Below are positions 40,593 to 51,524 of a DNA stretch of 64,000 nucleotides, one piece after another. Position 1 is the stretch's first letter; each line of letters opens with the position of its first letter. This stretch comes from Eucommia ulmoides. Its lineage: Eukaryota; Streptophyta; Magnoliopsida; Garryales; Eucommiaceae. The stretch spans positions 6,367,046-6,431,045 of the forward strand of contig CM028334.1 in NCBI GenBank assembly GCA_016647705.1, in the 5' to 3' direction. The notes below the pieces were generated by a model. That model was not told the DNA's origin, searched no databases, and was given only the letters and a program-made list of their open reading frames with translations. A program made the translations under genes and the position numbers.

Positions 40593-41032
40593 TTAATCTA
40601 TGAGTTTTTTTATTAAATAGTCCCTTATAGAGAGATCAGTTAGAGTAAAAGCCTTTTTACAAGACCGTTTAGGACTCAGACCACCCCGTACAATGGGTTT
40701 AGATTTCAGTCCTCCGACGAAGACAAGGCGAACGGCGATGGACGATAATACCCCTATTCACACCGACGGGCCAGATGGACGAATCATTTCGGTTATGGTA
40801 AGCGACAAAACAGAGATTTTCATACGTTGATTCAAATACATGTACGACATTCCTTATACAGGCGCGGATTTTCAAAAACATTCGATTCAAAATTGTAGGC
40901 GTTGCAGAACCGGTACGAGGTGAACATTTTGAAACGGCGGCGACGGCGACTATATCACTGTGTCTAAAGGCGAAACAGGTCAGTTATTCGATTGTATTCA
41001 TTGAAAAGTTATATAGTCGCGTTTAATATCGT

Positions 41033-41640
41033 TTTTTGGGTTTTCCGGAGTTGTTACAACGTTTTCGAAGTTGGATGTTCGAGTTTTGGCGATGAACGAA
41101 TGCCCATCGGTGAAGGATGTACGCTCCTGAGGAAACGTGAGCAGCACGTTAACGTTAATGCACTGGGGATTTATTTTGTACATCGCGACGTAATAACAAT
41201 GTCAATATAAGCAAACACAGTCAGGGTGTTTAATACCCTTTTTCGGGTTTTTGGCGTTGTTACAACGTTTTTGGAAGTTGGATGTTCGATGGGTGGCGAG
41301 GAATGAATGCCATTCGTGAGGAATATACGATACGAGATAACGTGAGCAATGCGTTAACGTTAACGTACTTCCGGTTTCTGTGTGTACGACGACGTAAGAA
41401 TAATGTGGATACAATCAAACACAGTTAGGAAATGGGTGTACATGGTAAAGTTAACTAACTCACAGTTTTTCAGCTTTTTTCTGAAAAGTAAGATGCTCCA
41501 AGATACAGCGGGTATCGGAGTGTATTCAACGAAACGCTTTCAACGTAAACATGTTTTGACTGTAACTATTTTTTTGCGTTAACATTAACGTAATGATTGT
41601 ACACTGTAAAGTTATTTAACTCACACTTTTTTCAGTTTTT
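41033..41640. repeat. Short tandem duplications in the left part of the MULE
   Basis: 'gttgttacaacgtttt' followed by 'gaagttggatgttcga' occurs at about 41052 and 41258, a period of about 205 bp. A second pair ('aaagtta', then 'aactcaca', 'gatgct.ca') lies at about 41446 and 41610. No coding is seen. Two open stretches with good splice sites (40694-40797 and 40899-40978) could be leader exons of the transposase gene. Confidence 0.55.
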
Positions 41641-42185
41641 TTTCGAAAATTGAGATGCTACAAACTACAGACGCACTCGTTTTGTATTCAATAAACAATA
41701 AAACGGGGTAACGTTAACGTGTTTTTAACAAGCTGCTATTTTCTCGTTAACGTTAACGTTAAATGCATTACCTAAAAATGCATTAACGTTCACGAATCAG
41801 TGTAGTGCTGGATTGCGTTAACGTTAACGCATGAAGTAATGCATTAACGTTTACGCAATCAGTATAGTGCTGGATTGCGTTAACGTTAACGCATTAGGTA
41901 ATACATTTAACGGTGACGCATTAAGTTATCTAGACTGTTTTTTTTTTTGGCACAATTACGCATTTTAAGTTTATGTGTTAACGGTTACGCAATTAATCTA
42001 ACTGCTGGACCAGAGTAACGCAGTGTTAACGTTAATGTAACCCCTGTTTTTACAAGTCAATTTGATTGCGTTAACGTTTACGCATTTACTAGTAAGCGTT
42101 GTTTACAGATTAATGTTCATCTACTGTTTTTTTCTTGCACTTTGGGTTTGCATCCTTCTGATCTTGCAGATTTACTGGGGGGTAA

Positions 42186-44208
42186 ATGGCTACGCGCATA
42201 TTTTTGATGTGCAAGTTTGATGGTTACTCGTTGGGCGTCAAGGTGGATGATGATTTCACGCAAGCGGTGCTTATTCAAAATGTGTTGTCGCGGTGGGACG
42301 TGTTGAGGGATGTTTCGTTCGAGATGTTTTATTCCATACCAGGGCATGACAGGTGCCTAATATCGTGTCAGGACGACGTAGAGGTAATGGTTAGCCTTGC
42401 ACGAGCAATGAAGCTTGAATATGTCGGGGTGGAGATAAAGGTGCGCGGCAGCGGTAGCGGACCAAGCGGCAGTCGGGACAGGATGTTATTTGAATATCCA
42501 ACGGGACAGGGGGGGCGGGATGGCATGGACAGGGAGGACGACATGTTGTCCGTTTTCTGCCCATTGCCTAAAAAGGCATTATTGTCCGATCATTGGGCTG
42601 AAGGTCTTAAAGAAGCCGGACAGATTTTTAAGGGTGGAATACCGGAATTTAGAGAATCACTGAGGAAATATGCTGTACAAATAGGTTTCACATTTCAGTA
42701 CATAAAGAACGACAAGAAGAGGGTGACAGCTGAATGTTCGCTCAAGGAGGAGAGGGATTGCAAATGGAGAGTGCATGGCAGGCTAGACGAAAGGAATGGG
42801 TTTTTTTACATTTGGGAGTTCCAGAAAAATCATAGTTGCGGCGCTGCTTATAGGACAGCGAGGAATGAGAAGATGAACTGTAAATGCAATAACACTTATT
42901 GTTAACACATTAGATGCAATTAACGTTTTCCTTTTTTTTTTTTACATTTTTTTTAACAGTCTTTGCGAGGGGGGTGTGGTGTGTGGGGGGTGTGTGTGTT
43001 TCTGATGAGACAAGCTGCTCATGTTTGGGGATGAGTAATGGAATTTTTTTGTAACGTTAACGTTTTAATGCGTTAACGTTAATGAGTTAACGTTAACGCA
43101 TTAAACGGCTGTGTATACAATGTTTTTTTCATAGCGTGATGATATGTTTTGTGTTTTTCGTAAATGGACAGGTCTTTTCCCGGTTGCATTTGCTGTTGTT
43201 GATGCGGAGAACGATGACAACTGGTATTGGTTCATGACCAATTTAGAAAAAATTGTGGCGAAAGAACGTGTGCTAACCTTCATTTCTGATCGACATAGTG
43301 GAATTCTTGAATGGGTCCGGAAGATGTTCCCGGATTGTTTTCATTCTTATTACTTGAACCACCTGAAGAACAATATGAGGGACAAATTAGCGGGTTTGAA
43401 ACAAGCGTGGAAGGAGAAGCTCGTGCACAAATATTCGATGATGGCATATGCGACAACGCTTGACAAATACTACCAGCTGAGGGAAGAATTAAGAACAGAA
43501 GGTATGGGACGAGTAGAGAATTTCCTAGAGGATGTGCCGCCAGACAACTTCTGCAACATGTTTTTCAAAGGCAAAAGATATGGGGAGATGTCGTCCAACC
43601 TAGCGGAGTCATTCAACGCATGGATCCGTGATTACCGGCACCTGCCGATCATATTAATGGTCGACAAGATTAGGTGCAAGGTAATGAACCAGTTGTCAGT
43701 GAGACGCGCCGAATCACTCCTGATGACGGGTTTCCTATACCCAGTACGCGACAAAATGCTGTCGCGGATGATAAGTGACGGGCGGACGTGGAATGTTGTT
43801 GAGTGCGGCAACAGCGTATACGAAGTGCACTCGATCCCATCCGTTCTGGTTGATGTGGATAAAAAAAAGTGCTCCTGCTTCGGGTGGCAGGGAAACGGGT
43901 TCCCGTGTGTTCATGCTTGTACGGAGATACAAAAAAGCGGCCAGAATATACATTCATCCGTTGAGTCGTTTTTCTTGGTGGAATATTACCGAATGACCTA
44001 CTCGGAAGGTATATATGGTGTACCCACCTTCGAGAAACCGGAATGGAATGCATCGGAAGCTGTAATTATCCCGCCGATCACAAAAAAACAACCAGGTCGA
44101 CCGCGGAAGAAATGCATCCCATCTAGGGGTGAGATCCCAGAAATAAGATGTGATAGATGTAAAAAGAATGGGCACCACAACAGGAAGACATGCACTGCTT
44201 CAATTTAA
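42186..44208 (+). pseudogene. MuDR-type MULE transposase lacking its central part
   Basis: Exon 42186-42879 starts with an N-terminal module (ATRIFLMCKFDGYSLGV ... VEIKV) that may be PB1-like. It then has the MuDR-type Cys/His DNA-binding zinc finger (ECSLKEERDCKWRVHG ... NHSCGA). Splicing from the GT at 42880 to the AG at 43170-43171 keeps the frame and enters GLFPVAFAVVDAENDDNWYW, the catalytic core, with the second acidic block FISDRHSGIL and the NLAESFNAWI block. A SWIM zinc finger (CSCFGWQGNGFPCVHAC) and a CCHC knuckle (CDRCKKNGHHNRKTC) close the protein, with a stop at 44206-44208. The segment that normally lies between the zinc finger and GLFPVAF, roughly 140 residues with the first catalytic Asp, is absent. 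About 290 bp of palindrome-containing DNA sits there. The remaining parts have no stops. A leader intron probably ends at 42170. Confidence 0.88.
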
Positions 44209-45365
44209 AGCACAGAGTAATCAAATATTTCCTTTTATGTAGTTTTGACACAGCAATACTTTATGTGTTTAATGTCAGTGGGGAGTGGAACCTCGTTTTT
44301 TTCACATGATGTTTTTGTTTTGCGTAAACATGTAACGAACACACACAAACTTTTAATGTTCAACGCTTTCATAATTTTTTTGTATATATTTAATCGCGTT
44401 AACGTTAACGCATTTACAAGACCCACCTCAATAACTAATCGCCCGTCGTTAAATCCCTTTTTTTGGACAACTAACCAGTTAAGAGCAATCACAGTTTGCG
44501 TTAACGTTAAGGCGAACGCATTTTACAACCAAAAAACTCAAATAACTAATCGCGTAAACATTAACGGTTTTTTATTACAAACTAGCATAAGAGCGAAAGA
44601 ACTACGTTAACGTTAACGTGAACGAATATTACAACAACTAATTGCATTAACATTAACGCAGTAAGGAAACCATCACATGTAACTTATAACGCGTTAACGT
44701 CACGACAAATACAACCCAGTAACAAAGTCAAACGTTAACGCAGTTCTTTAAAGTTCAGAAACAAAACAACTGCATTTTGTTTTTGCGTTAACGTTAACGT
44801 GAACGAAAGTACAAATTGCATTAAAGTTAACGGATTAACGAACCATCCATTTAACATATTAGCGTTAACGTTAACGCAATTAAGTGACAACTACGTTAAC
44901 GTTAACGCAATTTTTTTTAAGCATTTAAGGTACTTTGCGTTAACGTTAACGCAATATTTTTACAGACCAGAACAAATCAAAAAAAAAATTCCGTTAACGT
45001 TAACCTGCAACAGTCAAAATTGTTCAACAAGACCAACAAACTAAACCAAATCTAAACATTAACTAAGCCCATTAACGTTAACGCGTGGGGTCACAGGCAG
45101 CGCATGTAAAATTACAAATTGCGTTAACAATTAACACATTTACAAAAACCACATCAAATTCAAAAGGCAAAACATTCAACGCAATAAACCAACGGATGAA
45201 ATAAGAGTTAATTACATTTTTTGTTCGAGTCAACAATAACGCATTTGCACGTTAAAGCACTGATAAAACACACGCACCCACAATCGCAAAAAATGAATAA
45301 ATCAGGGGGATATATACATTTTCTCAGATTTTTGTCTCGCATCATCGATAAACTCCCCCCACAGG
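44209..45365. other. Spacer between the convergent MULE genes
   Basis: Eight exact palindromes (44398-44993) and many near copies, the densest cluster in the element. Frames such as 44245-44610 are by-products, because the repeat translates as Val-Asn-Val-Asn or Leu-Thr-Leu-Thr. No gene. Confidence 0.7.
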
Positions 45366-48300
45366 TCATGGTGTGCCCTGATCTGGTTGGGTTGTTTCAA
45401 CATCGACGCCCACCACGGGGACCCAACTGTAGTGCGGATGGTTGAGCAGAGCGTGTATTACGTCTCTCCGGACACCCCGTACATCCGCCACTGACAGTTT
45501 TTTCGCGACGGGCATATTTGTAGCATATTGTTTCATGATGTACATAACAAAAATGCCGCAATCAGTCCTGCAAACCCGGGGATGGGGGGGGTGGGGAAGG
45601 TAAACAGATGAGAATGATAAATTTGCAAATACATACGATTTTTAGTACACATGTTTCGGACGGGTGAACTTACGCCCCGCGTTGTTGTGGCGAATCGAGA
45701 CATTGTTCTATACGTGCGTCACCCCAATCTGGACGTATTTTCATGTTGATATGTCGTTCCACAAACCTTTTCTGTTCAGAATTTAGATTAGTCAAACAAA
45801 ATAGAGTGTAGTTAGAGACAATCAAAGTAGTCACACATTAAATCACATACCACCGTAAGTGCATCATTATAATAATGATCGGTCGTGTTCTTCCTTGGTC
45901 AGATGGAATTGTAGAACGTCCATTTTTTATCGGGTATATCCAGCACCATCACAGTCCAATGATTGGGTGACGCATGGCGACCGGTAGTGTTCATCGGGAA
46001 CACCAAATAACGGGTTTCTTTGCTGAACGCGGCGGAGATTGTGTAGTACAGTTCCTTCACCAGCACATTGTTGTCCTCCCGTATAAGATTCTATGATTTT
46101 TTTTTACGTGTTAGCAAGTTTGGATGAAAAAGGAAAAAAAGCTAACATGTGCTAAAGTGTCTTACCCAAATGCATAATATTGCGAACCGCGTTTCGTGCA
46201 GCAGCACGATTGGCGTGGTCATCCGCACGCGATTGATTGATCTAACTTCATCTTCCAAACACTCTCCATACGAATCAATCACCTGTGAGTAAAAGGAGGG
46301 AGAAAGACAAAACAAGTTAACGTTAACGTTAACGTAACATGAACGTTAACGTTACATTACGTAAACATTAACGTAAAAGCAATTTTTGTCAACACAAGCA
46401 CATTTTTACGAAACAAGTTGATGTAATCAGTTAATCAGGTCAATAACAAATACTATGCTGACGGTTTCATACGTTATCCGACACACGTCGCTCCATAATC
46501 ATGCAAATGATGTCGCCACATGAGACCGTGGCCATGGGTTTCCCACCTCCAAACACAAATGTACTGGGACATTGTCAAAAACAACATATCACATGATCAG
46601 CAAACATTTTTATGGAAAAAGGAATTTCAAAAGTAAACATGCACTTTGAGTAATTTTTTATTTCTTACCCTGGGCCCTCTTTGGAAATCACAGTCAAATT
46701 CTCCCAATCGTTGTCATCAAGCATCGCACCAACGATCGTCGAATTACGAGCTGGGAATACTGCATTGTCTTCATACATCGTTGCCGGGGGGAGCTCATCG
46801 ACATTAACTATGTCAGATCTCTCTTTCTGCTTCCCTTTCCCTTTTGCTTTTGGGTAGACAAAATCGCTGCCTTGTTTCTTTGGTTGCCTCTCCTTCTTCT
46901 TTACTCGACCAACCATGGAGCTAACCTTTTGCGTTGCCTCCCCATGCGACGTAGGCATAGGGACTGGCGACGGCGCATCGGGGGTGTCAGTCGGCATGAC
47001 CATAGACAGCGGTTGAGGTTCTTGAGGAGGTTCTTGAGGTTCGCGGACTGCGAGAGTGGTAGGGGTACCCCTACCCCCATTTGCATGTGGGCATTCAATT
47101 TCATCTGTAGGTCCTGTATTTGTTTATTGAGCGCCACACGCATTTTAACGTCTGATTTTGCTATCTCCTTCTTCTCTTGCCTCAGCAGTTTGTTTATTTC
47201 TTGTTCTGCCTTCAAGTCAAGAGCAAGATCATTATATTTCTTCTTCATTTCGCCAGCAGCATCAGCATGTTGCTGATTCAACGTTTCGATTGTTTTTTTA
47301 AGTGTTTCCACCTCCTGGGCGAGTTCGTCACATCTCCGCCTAAGGTCCTCCTGTTCTGTATCGACGGCGGCCTCTTTATACTTCTGAGTCACGTCATGCA
47401 CACTCATTTCCGTTAGGATGTCTCTCTTCTCCCCAATTGATTTCGCTAATCTTGCAGAGAGATTAGAGACAGAACGCTCATAACTTTCTTTTTCTTGCAA
47501 AGACGACGCTTTCAGATTATCAATTTCCTTTTTCTGCTCGACGTTGGTAGCGGTTATGATTACGATCACCCTATGCAGCGCTGCAATGGTCTGATCTTTT
47601 TCCATCTTATTCGCAGTGAACTCACCCTGCATTTGGTCGATCTGTCTGCGGATGTCATCAACTGCACCTGCGGAGACAGACGGTGGCTGCAAGTCACCCG
47701 CTGAAGGTGTGCAAAATGCACTCTCAGCGGGGGCAGCATCATCACCCAAATCGGTTGCGGCTTGAGTTGGGACGGGAGAAGGATGATATATGAGGGGTGT
47801 GAGATACCGCCCTATGATGTCGTCAACCATTGCATCATAGTCATCAGCAGCAGCAGCAGCGTCTGGATCTCCGCCCTCATTGCCCGGGCTATCGTTAAAT
47901 GAATCATTACTATCCTCTTTCAAAGCAATCCCCATTTGAAGCTTTGCCAAAGTCTCATCAGCGGGCTGATCTTTCACCTGGCAAGCATGTGCAAGCATTA
48001 ACGTTAACCAGCCACACAGACACACACACACACACCCAAAACAACTAACCGATTGCGTTTACATTAAAATTAAATTGCTTGCGTTAACGTTAAACATAAG
48101 CACAAAAACCAACAAATAAGTTCGCTAATGCTAACGCAAATAACAATTCCAGCCACAACATCTGCTTTTTTTGCTATTGCGTTAACGTTAACGCACTATT
48201 TATTTGTGCATTAACGTTAACGCAAATATTTATATGCTTAACATTAACACATACATAATTGCGTTAACGTTAATGCAATTATTAAGTGCGTTAACGTTAA

Positions 48301-50952
48301 CGATAACGCAATAACAATCTAACAATACATAACTTAGTTTGCTTTAACGTTAACGCAACAACTAATTGCGTTAACCATAACGCAAAATACCACTTACCAT
48401 TTTTCACGTACCTGCATCAACGTTAAAATCACAACATGTTTTTTTTGCTTACCTTATCAGCTGGCAGTAGACCGAGGGGAATGCCTCCCAAGTTGGAAGA
48501 AAACGTGGTGAGGCACCACCGCTCCAAACGCGGCACACTATACTGCCTACCCTCGGTGTGGTCAACCAACGTTGTGTGCTCGCACAACCAATACTGTAAG
48601 TAAAATTCGTAATATGTCAAGCAGGGTCCACAAACAACGCTTGTAAATATTTGAAAAACATTTTCACAATGGGTATGTGTATACCTGGAGAGCAAGCACG
48701 CACCCCGTGACCGCCCGGGGTTCCATGTACGATTTCTTGAGGCTGCTTTCGAGATCTGTGAACATCGCAGCTGTCCAGTTGTAATTTTCCATGTCTTCAA
48801 TTGTTTCAACATAGCGAACCAACGATTTCTGGACCTGCTGCCCAGTTGTCGCAAAGAAGCACGTGGTCATCAGGTGTAGAATAACCATGCGGATAACATC
48901 CTGTACTGTTTCATTGTTCGTGGCGGCGACATTCGCTTGCACTTGTGATCTCAAATAAGCAACACTAAACCCACGGTCTGCGAATGTTAGTCTGGACATG
49001 AATGGGGAGTCGAATTTTGTGTAACGACTCAGAACAATGGGTTCTTCACCCGTTGATATCCCGAATATCAGCTGGATGTCAAGCGGGGTTATCCGGATGA
49101 GCCTGCCCCCTATCCTAACCCCCCCCCCCCCCCCCCCCCCCCCGGGTGCAGGGTTGTAGCATCGGATGATCATTTCAATGAGATCATCATTTTTGTGGAT
49201 GTTTTCGAGCGTCACCCGCTGCTCATATAATGTCTCGAATATTTTTGCAAAGGGGGTCCGGGCCAGCAGTGCCTTATGCTGATCGTTGAGTTTGCAGTCT
49301 CTCAGTATTTCATAGGTCTGCTTAAGGTTGGAGCGATAAAGGAACGTCCGCTGGCTCGAACTTTCCTTTTTCGGCTTCTTTAGGAGTTTTACTGCAAGAA
49401 CGACGGGGGGAAACACAATTAATGCACATTACAAGCCACACGTTAACGTTAAAGCAGTTATCCATATCCCCTCATTACGTAACATAAAACTGGGTACTAT
49501 TTTGCGTTAACGTTAACGCACAACAAGAAATGCGTTAACGTTAACGCATTTCTTTCAAAAAAACAAAATATCGCACCAAAACGGCCCCCACCCTTTTCCC
49601 AGGCAAAACGTCTATGTGCGTTAACATTAATGCAATTACATCCACACGTCAACGTTAAAGCAAGACGCAGCAAATAGTGCTGCACCAGTCAGACAAACAA
49701 ACAAACCTAAATCTAAACACACAGGCTCAAATTAATGTTAACCTTAAAGCAGTCATCCATATCACTCGGTACGTAACAAAAACATGCTACTACTCTGCGT
49801 TAACGTTAACGCACAACAAGAAATGCGTTAACGTTAACGTATTTCTTTCAAAAAAACAAAATTTCGCACCAAAACGGTCTCCACCATTTTCCCAGGCAAA
49901 ACGTCTTTGTGCGTTAACATTAATGCAATTACATCAACGCATTAACGTTAACGCAAGATGCAGCAAATAGTGTTGCACCAGTCAGACAAACAAACAAACC
50001 TAAATCTAAACACACAGGCTCAAATTAATGTTAACCTTAAAGCAGTCATCCATATCACTCGGTACGTAACAAAAACATGCAACTACTCTGCGTTATAACG
50101 TTAACGCACAACAAGAAATGGGTTAACGTTAATGCGTTTCTTTAAAAAATACAAAATATCGCACCAAAACGGTCCCCACCCTTTTCCCAGGCAAAATGTC
50201 TATGTGCGTTAACATTAATGCAATTACATCCACGCGTTAACGTTAACGCAAGACGCAGCAAATAGTGCTGCACCAGTCAGACAAAAAACAAACAAACCTA
50301 AATCTAAACACACAGCCTCAAATTAATGTTAACGTTAAAGCAGTCATCCATATCACTCGGTACGTAACAAAAACAGGCAACTACTCTGCTTCAGCGTTAA
50401 CGCACCACAATAAATGCGTTAACGTTAACGCATTTTCCTCAACAAACCAGAACGTCGTCCCAGATTTGAGAAAAAAACCGACGAGTAACGCAAAAGGGCC
50501 CTCCCCCCTTTTTACAGGCAAATGTCTGTTTGCGTTAACATTAACGCAATCACATCAACGCGTTAACGGTAACGCAATCGAAGTACATAGTGGTGTACCA
50601 GACAAACAAACAAACCTAAATCTAAACATACGACTCACATTTATGTTAACGTTAACGCAAGCATTTTTTTTATAAATTCCTTCTTTTCGGAGGCAAAACA
50701 ACATGTGGGTCAACATCGCAAAACAACGAAACAAAACACGACGTACGATTTCAAAAAAAACGTAAACAGGGGAACAGAGCATTTCGGAGTCGGGTAAAAT
50801 AGACGAACATCATCGTCTCGCTTCGTGATTTTCATTTCTAAAACGCCGTCCCCTAACAACATTGTATCGATTTTAGGGTTTCACATACCGTCGGGACTGA
50901 GGGTTGCTCGTTTCTGTGTGGAAGACGAGGGGGCGCATTCAAAATTCTCCAT
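45366..50952 (-). pseudogene. ULP1/C48 SUMO-protease-like gene carried by the MULE, nine exons, broken
   Basis: Exons on the - strand: 50889-50952, 48685-49391, 48453-48593, 46669-47977, 46473-46563, 46166-46282, 45851-46090, 45674-45771, 45366-45567. All are GT-AG and in phase. The N-terminal part (LLARTPFAKIFE, then GRLIRITPLDIQLIFGIS) is a MULE-associated domain; a Gly run sits at 49120-49143. Exon 4 encodes a long coiled coil, then a Pro/Glu repeat and a basic tail (KGKGKQKE). The C-terminus is the cysteine-protease domain: catalytic His in NHWTVMVLD, Asn in FYNSI where Ulp1 has Asp, the oxyanion Gln in PQQRGATDC and Cys in TDCGIFVMYIM. ULP1 enzymes remove SUMO. Two defects: a frameshift in a G-run near 47060-47090 and a TGA at 45899-45901. 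Intron 1 (about 1.5 kb) holds a tandem repeat. Confidence 0.88.
49430..50690. repeat. Tandem repeat of about 295 bp, four to five units, in ULP intron 1
   Basis: 'gcagcaaatagtg.tgcacc' occurs at 49667, 49960 and 50255 and, altered, near 50580. The spacings are 293, 295 and about 325. Each unit carries two to four palindromes in fixed positions, plus 'acaaacaaacctaaatctaaacac', 'ccatatcactcggtacgtaac' and a 'gcaccaaaacgg.c.cca' block. The units are very similar, so the array is young or homogenised. Confidence 0.85.
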
Positions 50953-51524
50953 TATCTGAAGACGATGGGGCGATTTTGGATTATTAGTTTTAGGGTTTTG
51001 GGGTTTCAGAGTTTTTAAGCGAGGAGAGGATAGATAGCGTGGGAGAGAATAGAGAGCGTTTTGGCGGTTTTTTTGTATGCGATCGTGCAGCTAGTGGAAC
51101 GTGTAACAGGACATATCGGAATCAGAACGGACGCAGTAACACGCCGACAGCTAACCGTGCGTTAACGTTAACGCAATCCGCTACTGTTAACAGAAAAAAA
51201 AAAAAAAAAAAAAAAAATACCGTTGCAAAGCTATCGTCGAGCTCTTTAATTTGATCACATTTTTATATGATTTGATTCAGAAATCAGATTTATAGAAGCG
51301 GATTACGTATTGGGTGGTTTTTTTTTAGTGCCCTGTTCATGTTGTAGTGTTTGTATCCTCAGAATGGCATGTTGCGTAAATAAACTGTAAAAGGAAGGAC
51401 AAAATGGAAGGACTTTTTCTTAAAGAATTGAGGTGGTCTGAAAACTTAATTCTAATTGTACTAGGGTCTAAATTGTGAAGTGTGCTCTAACAGAGGACTA
51501 AAAAATAAAATTCCCTTAATCTAT

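Follow-up and report, generated by a model that had tools for sequence, protein, structure and literature searches.

The 64,000-nucleotide stretch of Eucommia ulmoides contig CM028334.1 analysed here (the window) harbours a Mutator-like element (MULE) of 10,914 bp (40602..51515) that encodes (i) a transposase and (ii), in opposed orientation, a second protein termed VC, and that is saturated with a palindromic motif confined to its non-coding DNA. With a probability of about 0.85, VC recognises this palindrome and would be the element's own anti-silencing protein of the VANC type. This assignment is based on the anatomy of the element, which is that of the VANDAL/VANC system of Arabidopsis: a MURA-like transposase, 9-bp target-site duplications, degenerate termini, a dense non-coding motif and co-divergence of motif and protein. 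A VANDAL/VANC-like anti-silencing system as such is already known; the present one would be a variant that differs in the form of its site (symmetric and CpG-bearing).

The 12-mer GTTAACGTTAAC occurs exactly 24 times in the window (starts 41353 to 51161; word count) and is absent from the remainder of the 64 kb outside the element, in full agreement with a preliminary description made from the sequence alone (24 copies in ~10 kb, none in the other 54 kb). Nine of the 24 copies extend to the full 18-mer TGCGTTAACGTTAACGCA, a near-perfect palindrome in which a CG separates two 8-bp half-sites (three CpGs in total), and the 10-bp core TTAACGTTAA is present in 39 copies. That far less than one copy of the 12-mer is expected by chance is borne out by 500 dinucleotide shuffles of the element, yielding a mean of 0.004 copies and a maximum of 1 (maximum of 2 for the core). 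Spacings and flanks vary between sites, which do not form one tandem array, as had also been recognised from the outset; yet some of them reside within tandem repeats, one located 5' of the transposase (62-bp unit, x2.3) and another in VC intron 1 (293-bp unit, x3.4).

Avoidance of exons, already claimed for the 12-mer, is complete in the window element: although exons (annotated partly by reading) make up 43.2 % of it, none of the 24 12-mers, 39 cores and 141 half-sites overlaps with them. Combined motif and repeat scans locate the sites to clusters 5' of the transposase (41149..42079), in the transposase intron (43055..43104), in the intron separating VC exons 5 and 6 (46316..46374), in VC intron 3 (47998..48385) and in VC intron 1 (49442..50655), the latter comprising the 293-bp repeat with several sites per unit plus its flanks. 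Motif scanning additionally revealed a cluster between the two convergent genes (44398..45130) and an 18-bp palindrome 5' of VC exon 1 (51158..51175). Related loci, in which a position matrix served to score sites and tblastn to mask exons (a slightly generous test, since exons missed by tblastn stay unmasked), give much the same picture. Of 365 window-type sites at 11 loci, none is coding (141 expected), and the corresponding numbers for the other motif types described below are 0/18, 0/37, 2/35 and 0/18, amounting to 2 coding sites among 473 in all 18 scanned loci.

The ends of the element were defined by comparison with other copies in the genome (left end, E11, E26 and E32; right end, E11, E26, E32 and E37p), making it wider than the span of 41150..51180 originally proposed. 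Its termini are short, imperfect inverted repeats (~20 bp, judged by eye), flanked by the 9-bp duplication TTAATCTAT read from the sequence at 40593..40601 and 51516..51524; copies E11, E26 and E32 are likewise flanked by 9-bp duplications of their own. The transposase is encoded on the plus strand by exon 1 (42186..42882) with a MuDR DNA-binding domain (PF03108, E 2.4e-15) and exon 2 (43173..44208; splice site by reading) with MULE (PF10551, 6.3e-8) and SWIM (PF04434, 4.1e-7) domains. A deletion of ~428 bp truncates exon 1 on the 3' side, the respective stretch being present in E11, E26 and E32. Motif sites had been reported to fill even the gap left by the missing transposase core. The site is indeed present; since the deletion adjoins a genuine intron, however, it is an intron site.

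The VC gene on the minus strand consists of nine exons by reading. Exon 1 (50889..50952) is inferred; exon 2 (48693..49395) encodes an N-terminal domain with weak likeness to DUF1985/PMD and a predicted VANC21-like fold (profile search and model); exon 3 (48454..48591), also read, is matched in other copies; exon 4 (46668..47984) encodes a coiled-coil-like middle part and contains a frame change (open reading frames, profiles and copies); exons 5 to 9 (45365..46564) encode an Ulp1 (C48) peptidase domain, delineated by reading and by the spliced exons of copy E37p, on which the domain was identified (PF02902, E 1.3e-14). Exon 7 of the window copy contains an in-frame stop. Due to this stop and the transposase deletion, the window copy appears unable to make either protein whole. 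Matches to DUF1985 (E 0.00036-0.0036) and to PMD (E 6.9e-6 to 0.02) were each obtained for 6 of 8 VC proteins, all below the curated cut-offs. The predicted model of the N-terminal domain has the VANC21-DNA complex 9lnj as its best structural match, a tentative hint of a VANC-like fold. A search of 5.8 billion proteins retrieved one relative only (P0001).

In the searched genome (947 Mb), the 12-mer occurs 7,712 times as compared to 183 for the reversed word used as control (42-fold), and the 18-mer 1,015 times (control 0). The first 50 12-mers on contig C1, among the matches listed, fall into 11 clusters, all of which were retrieved, while random placement gives a mean of 47 and a minimum of 41. 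Recognisable relatives contain 34 of these 50 sites (E11, 19; E49, 8; L014, 3; a gene-less element in L009, 3; L005, 1). The other 16 (L006-L008, L012, L013, L015, L016 and L019) are located in sequence that has no similarity to the window proteins and much of which recurs among these loci; therefore, some sites represent old remnants or are part of something else. L005, L006, L013 and L016 contain unassigned repeats sharing sequence with one another, with one or two core sites in each. All four other full-length copies read (E11, E26, E32 and the diverged E49) are densely populated with the core. Thus, the palindrome is neither equally common outside this family nor private to one locus, both of which had been named as findings that would speak against the initial reading. 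It is also carried by elements devoid of genes: L014 measures 951 bp and has similar termini, six core sites and the 9-bp A-rich, low-complexity duplication AAAAAAATA. A further gene-less element (L009:3544-6154) has termini like those of the window element and contains 19 core sites, of which many are the variant CATTAACGTTAATG with changed outer CpGs.

Comparison with the diverged copy E49 demonstrates that the motif is retained while its flanks turn over. Blocks alignable to the window (blastn, E 1e-10, pieces over 80 bp) are 66-82 % identical, and 37 of the 39 window cores and 15 of the 16 E49 cores lie outside them. Core sites of E49 nevertheless occupy the same compartments, i.e., 5' of the transposase, its intron, the region between the genes, VC intron 1 and the VC leader, and the 15 10-mers most shared by the two elements are all motif-like words.

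Of 2,383 candidate VC homologues, 149 were scored, which are 58-100 % identical, and 13 VC loci were read in addition to the first set. Four of them (L034, L035, L036 and L037; VC 68-77 % identical) carry the window's motif (F1), L028 contains a weak version and L029 one site. No copy of the core TTAACGTTAA is present in L025, L026, L027, L030, L031, L032 and L033 (VC about 56-61 % identical). These seven loci carry enriched motifs of their own, namely F2 (GATGTGAACATTCACATC; L025), F3 (TTGAGTTAACATACACACAA; L026, L031 and L032), F4 (TACGTGAACATCAACA; L027 and L033) and F5 (GTTACATGTAACATT; L030). The central dinucleotide is CG in the window's type and CA in F2-F5. Palindromy (r with the own reverse complement) is strong for F1 (0.95) and F2 (0.78), weak for F3 (0.54-0.60) and not significant for F4 and F5. 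The matrices of F1-F3, F1-F4, F2-F3, F2-F4 and F3-F4 resemble each other more than column-shuffled matrices do (single-comparison values, ten pairs), whereas similarity is not significant for F1-F2 (0.077), F1-F5 (0.067) and the other pairs involving F5. F1 and F2 were also aligned by eye in an '8-2-8' arrangement, which was dropped because the matrix comparison prefers another one. The type matrices overlap, F3 scoring also in window-type loci. F4 sites, moreover, are scored in the F5 locus L030 (1-3996) at 3.25 per kb, and two motif types may coexist in this single element.

Motif type changes with the VC lineage. When mapped onto a tree built from 17 VC domains, it requires four changes, which is the minimum possible and was reached in 0 of 200 shuffles (L029 kept out of the groups; L005 and L028, both poor in motifs, assigned to the window's type). 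In keeping with prediction, the F2 core, which was derived from one 7.5-kb locus (L025), occurs 2,871 times genome-wide (control 74). The excess is modest for an F3 13-mer (127 versus 48); F3 sites are nevertheless found beside the VC loci at C4:10817428 and C5:57976580, neither of which was used in deriving F3. In the listed span of C1, all six VC places with at least 65 % identity (among the 149 scored) have an exact 18-mer within 10 kb, in contrast to the 61 % identical place in this set (L030, other type), which has none within 10 kb.

In the non-coding DNA of Arabidopsis VANDAL21, the motif YAGTATTAY is bound by VANC21 both in vitro and in vivo, with concomitant loss of methylation, and VANC6 likewise causes methylation loss via the other motifs AGTTGTCC/AGTTGTAC (Hosaka et al. 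2017, PMC5735166). These target motifs expand as tandem repeats, VANC intron included (PMC5735166). The view that no such motif is a standard MULE feature was therefore incomplete, since VANDALs carry dense, VANC-bound non-coding motifs (PMC5735166). VANDAL21 and the window element share the combination of a transposase with a second protein (VANC and VC, respectively), the dense short motif in introns, intergenic and terminal non-coding DNA but mainly not in exons, tandem repeats extending into the intron of the second gene, and the pairing of different proteins with different motifs. RNA-directed DNA methylation acts on non-coding VANDAL regions, and degenerate terminal repeats are named as a VANDAL trait (PMC10398659). 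An Ulp1 (C48) domain as in VC is also found, as a captured domain, in the VANC of KIU-type VANDALs; a review covers how these Ulp1-bearing proteins spread in eudicots, in which the anti-silencing motifs are stated to co-evolve with VANC (PMC13317346). The crystal structure of VANC21 was announced in a meeting report (PMC8756742), and a table of Arabidopsis genes contains an 'Ulp1 protease family protein (DUF1985)' (PMC5821449). With classical MuDR/Mutator the element has the MURA-like transposase and the 9-bp duplications in common; it differs by short, degenerate instead of long terminal inverted repeats and by the opposed VC gene in place of MURB. The key comparative paper on KIU-type VANDALs is reportedly that of Sasaki et al. 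2022 (EMBO J).

Differences exist as well. VANC21 motifs are short and arrayed in one orientation and those of VANC6 are short (PMC5735166), as opposed to an 18-bp near-perfect palindrome with three CpGs in the window; being palindromic, the latter has no orientation, and the one-orientation trait, which is descriptive rather than defining, is thus lacking. Among the papers listed in a literature search for palindromic VANC binding motifs, PMC5735166 is the only one on VANDALs, and it was matched without the word 'palindromic'. The 12-mer string itself was encountered in the text of three papers, all of which, by their listing, deal with unrelated subjects. VANDAL21 possesses a third gene, VANB, while none was noticed in the open reading frame list of the window, in which no search was aimed at a third gene such as VANB. 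Helical phasing of sites is a trait of VANDAL/VANC systems; it was sought, and no clear phasing was seen (vector strength at 10.5 bp 0.083 for 77 distinct and 0.141 for 270 spacings). In sequence comparison, neither single VC sequences nor an 8-row profile yielded a match to VANC21 among PDB sequences, nor any other meaningful one. A match to ETV6 in the same sequence set was rejected, as it rests on a glycine run.

If VC recognises the palindrome, it would probably bind as a homodimer to two inverted TGCGTTAA half-sites around the central CG, a dimer being indicated by the two 8-bp half-sites. High site density would tag the whole element and its gene-less derivatives as targets. By analogy to VANC21 and VANC6 in Arabidopsis, binding may remove host silencing marks; expression and transposition of the element could therefore take place while the rest of the genome is little affected. 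Accumulation of sites in introns and spacers is proposed to result from the constraint on exons, and the sites may have spread partly through tandem duplication.

Of the roles initially suggested, binding of 'another dimeric protein' is thus favoured, while the others fit less well. The transposase possesses a MuDR DNA-binding domain, and motif type could co-vary with the transposase as well as with VC, so that sites serving transposition might be envisaged. MURA, however, binds terminal repeats, and the outer 547 bp (left) and 340 bp (right) of the element are free of cores. Moreover, motifs fill the introns of both genes, a layout better matching the VANC precedent and rendering transposase sites unlikely. 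A promoter or enhancer array bound by a host factor, e.g., a MYB protein, was suggested by the putative likeness of TAACG/GTTAAC half-sites to some plant MYB targets. A shared host factor should keep one motif, in contrast to the differences among related elements that track the VC tree, and one cluster is located between the 3' ends of both genes, far from their starts; such an array is considered very unlikely.

Tandem repeats containing several sites indicate that duplication was likely part of the motif's history. That it is an inert short repeat, spreading within the element via slippage or gene conversion, is nonetheless highly improbable in view of its retention in E49 amid unalignable flanks, the avoidance of coding DNA across types and the different motifs of other VC types. 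Finally, a palindrome with three CpGs could form cruciforms or nucleate silencing. Yet F3, F4 and F5, occurring in relatives of the same layout, are weakly or not significantly palindromic and mostly without CpG; neither hairpin nor CpG is therefore a shared property, and a structural or epigenetic role of this kind is scarcely credible.

Beyond recognition by VC, one may speculate, with considerable doubt, on how the symmetric site arose and diversified: an asymmetric VANC site may have become a symmetric dimer site with three CpGs, methylation-dependent binding would create a self-reinforcing switch, and decay of CG would lead to new types. Accordingly framed, VC would keep bound copies open and lose silenced ones, and CG-to-CA/TG decay of silenced sites would be the route to new motif types and VC specificities.

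Among the 344 sites that match the palindrome at 13 or more of its 18 positions, conservation amounts to 76-88 % at CpG positions and to 89-99 % at inner A/T positions, and changes at CpGs are mostly C-to-T or G-to-A. This pattern fits methylation of silenced copies, but is a hint only, because the outermost, non-CpG positions (kept in 66-81 %) are as variable or more.

The five motif types observed in E. ulmoides, two of which number thousands of sites, provide an extensive natural collection of proteins matched to their target motifs. Change in the DNA specificity of a transposon protein together with its targets could become readable from sequence and testable in vitro, and the palindromic, CpG-bearing site makes methylation-sensitive anti-silencing directly testable. 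The findings also suggest that introns saturated with a motif can serve to spot VANC-type systems in unannotated sequence.

Close to E11, a fragment of a different MULE transposase (L018:8186-8563) is 46 % identical over 127 residues; outside E11, the surrounding 10-kb stretch contains neither a VC match nor a core motif. In VC exon 2 of the window copy, a run of 25 C (49119-49143) adds a glycine tract that is lacking in E11 and E26 and similar in L035; this run could be due to slippage or an assembly artefact.

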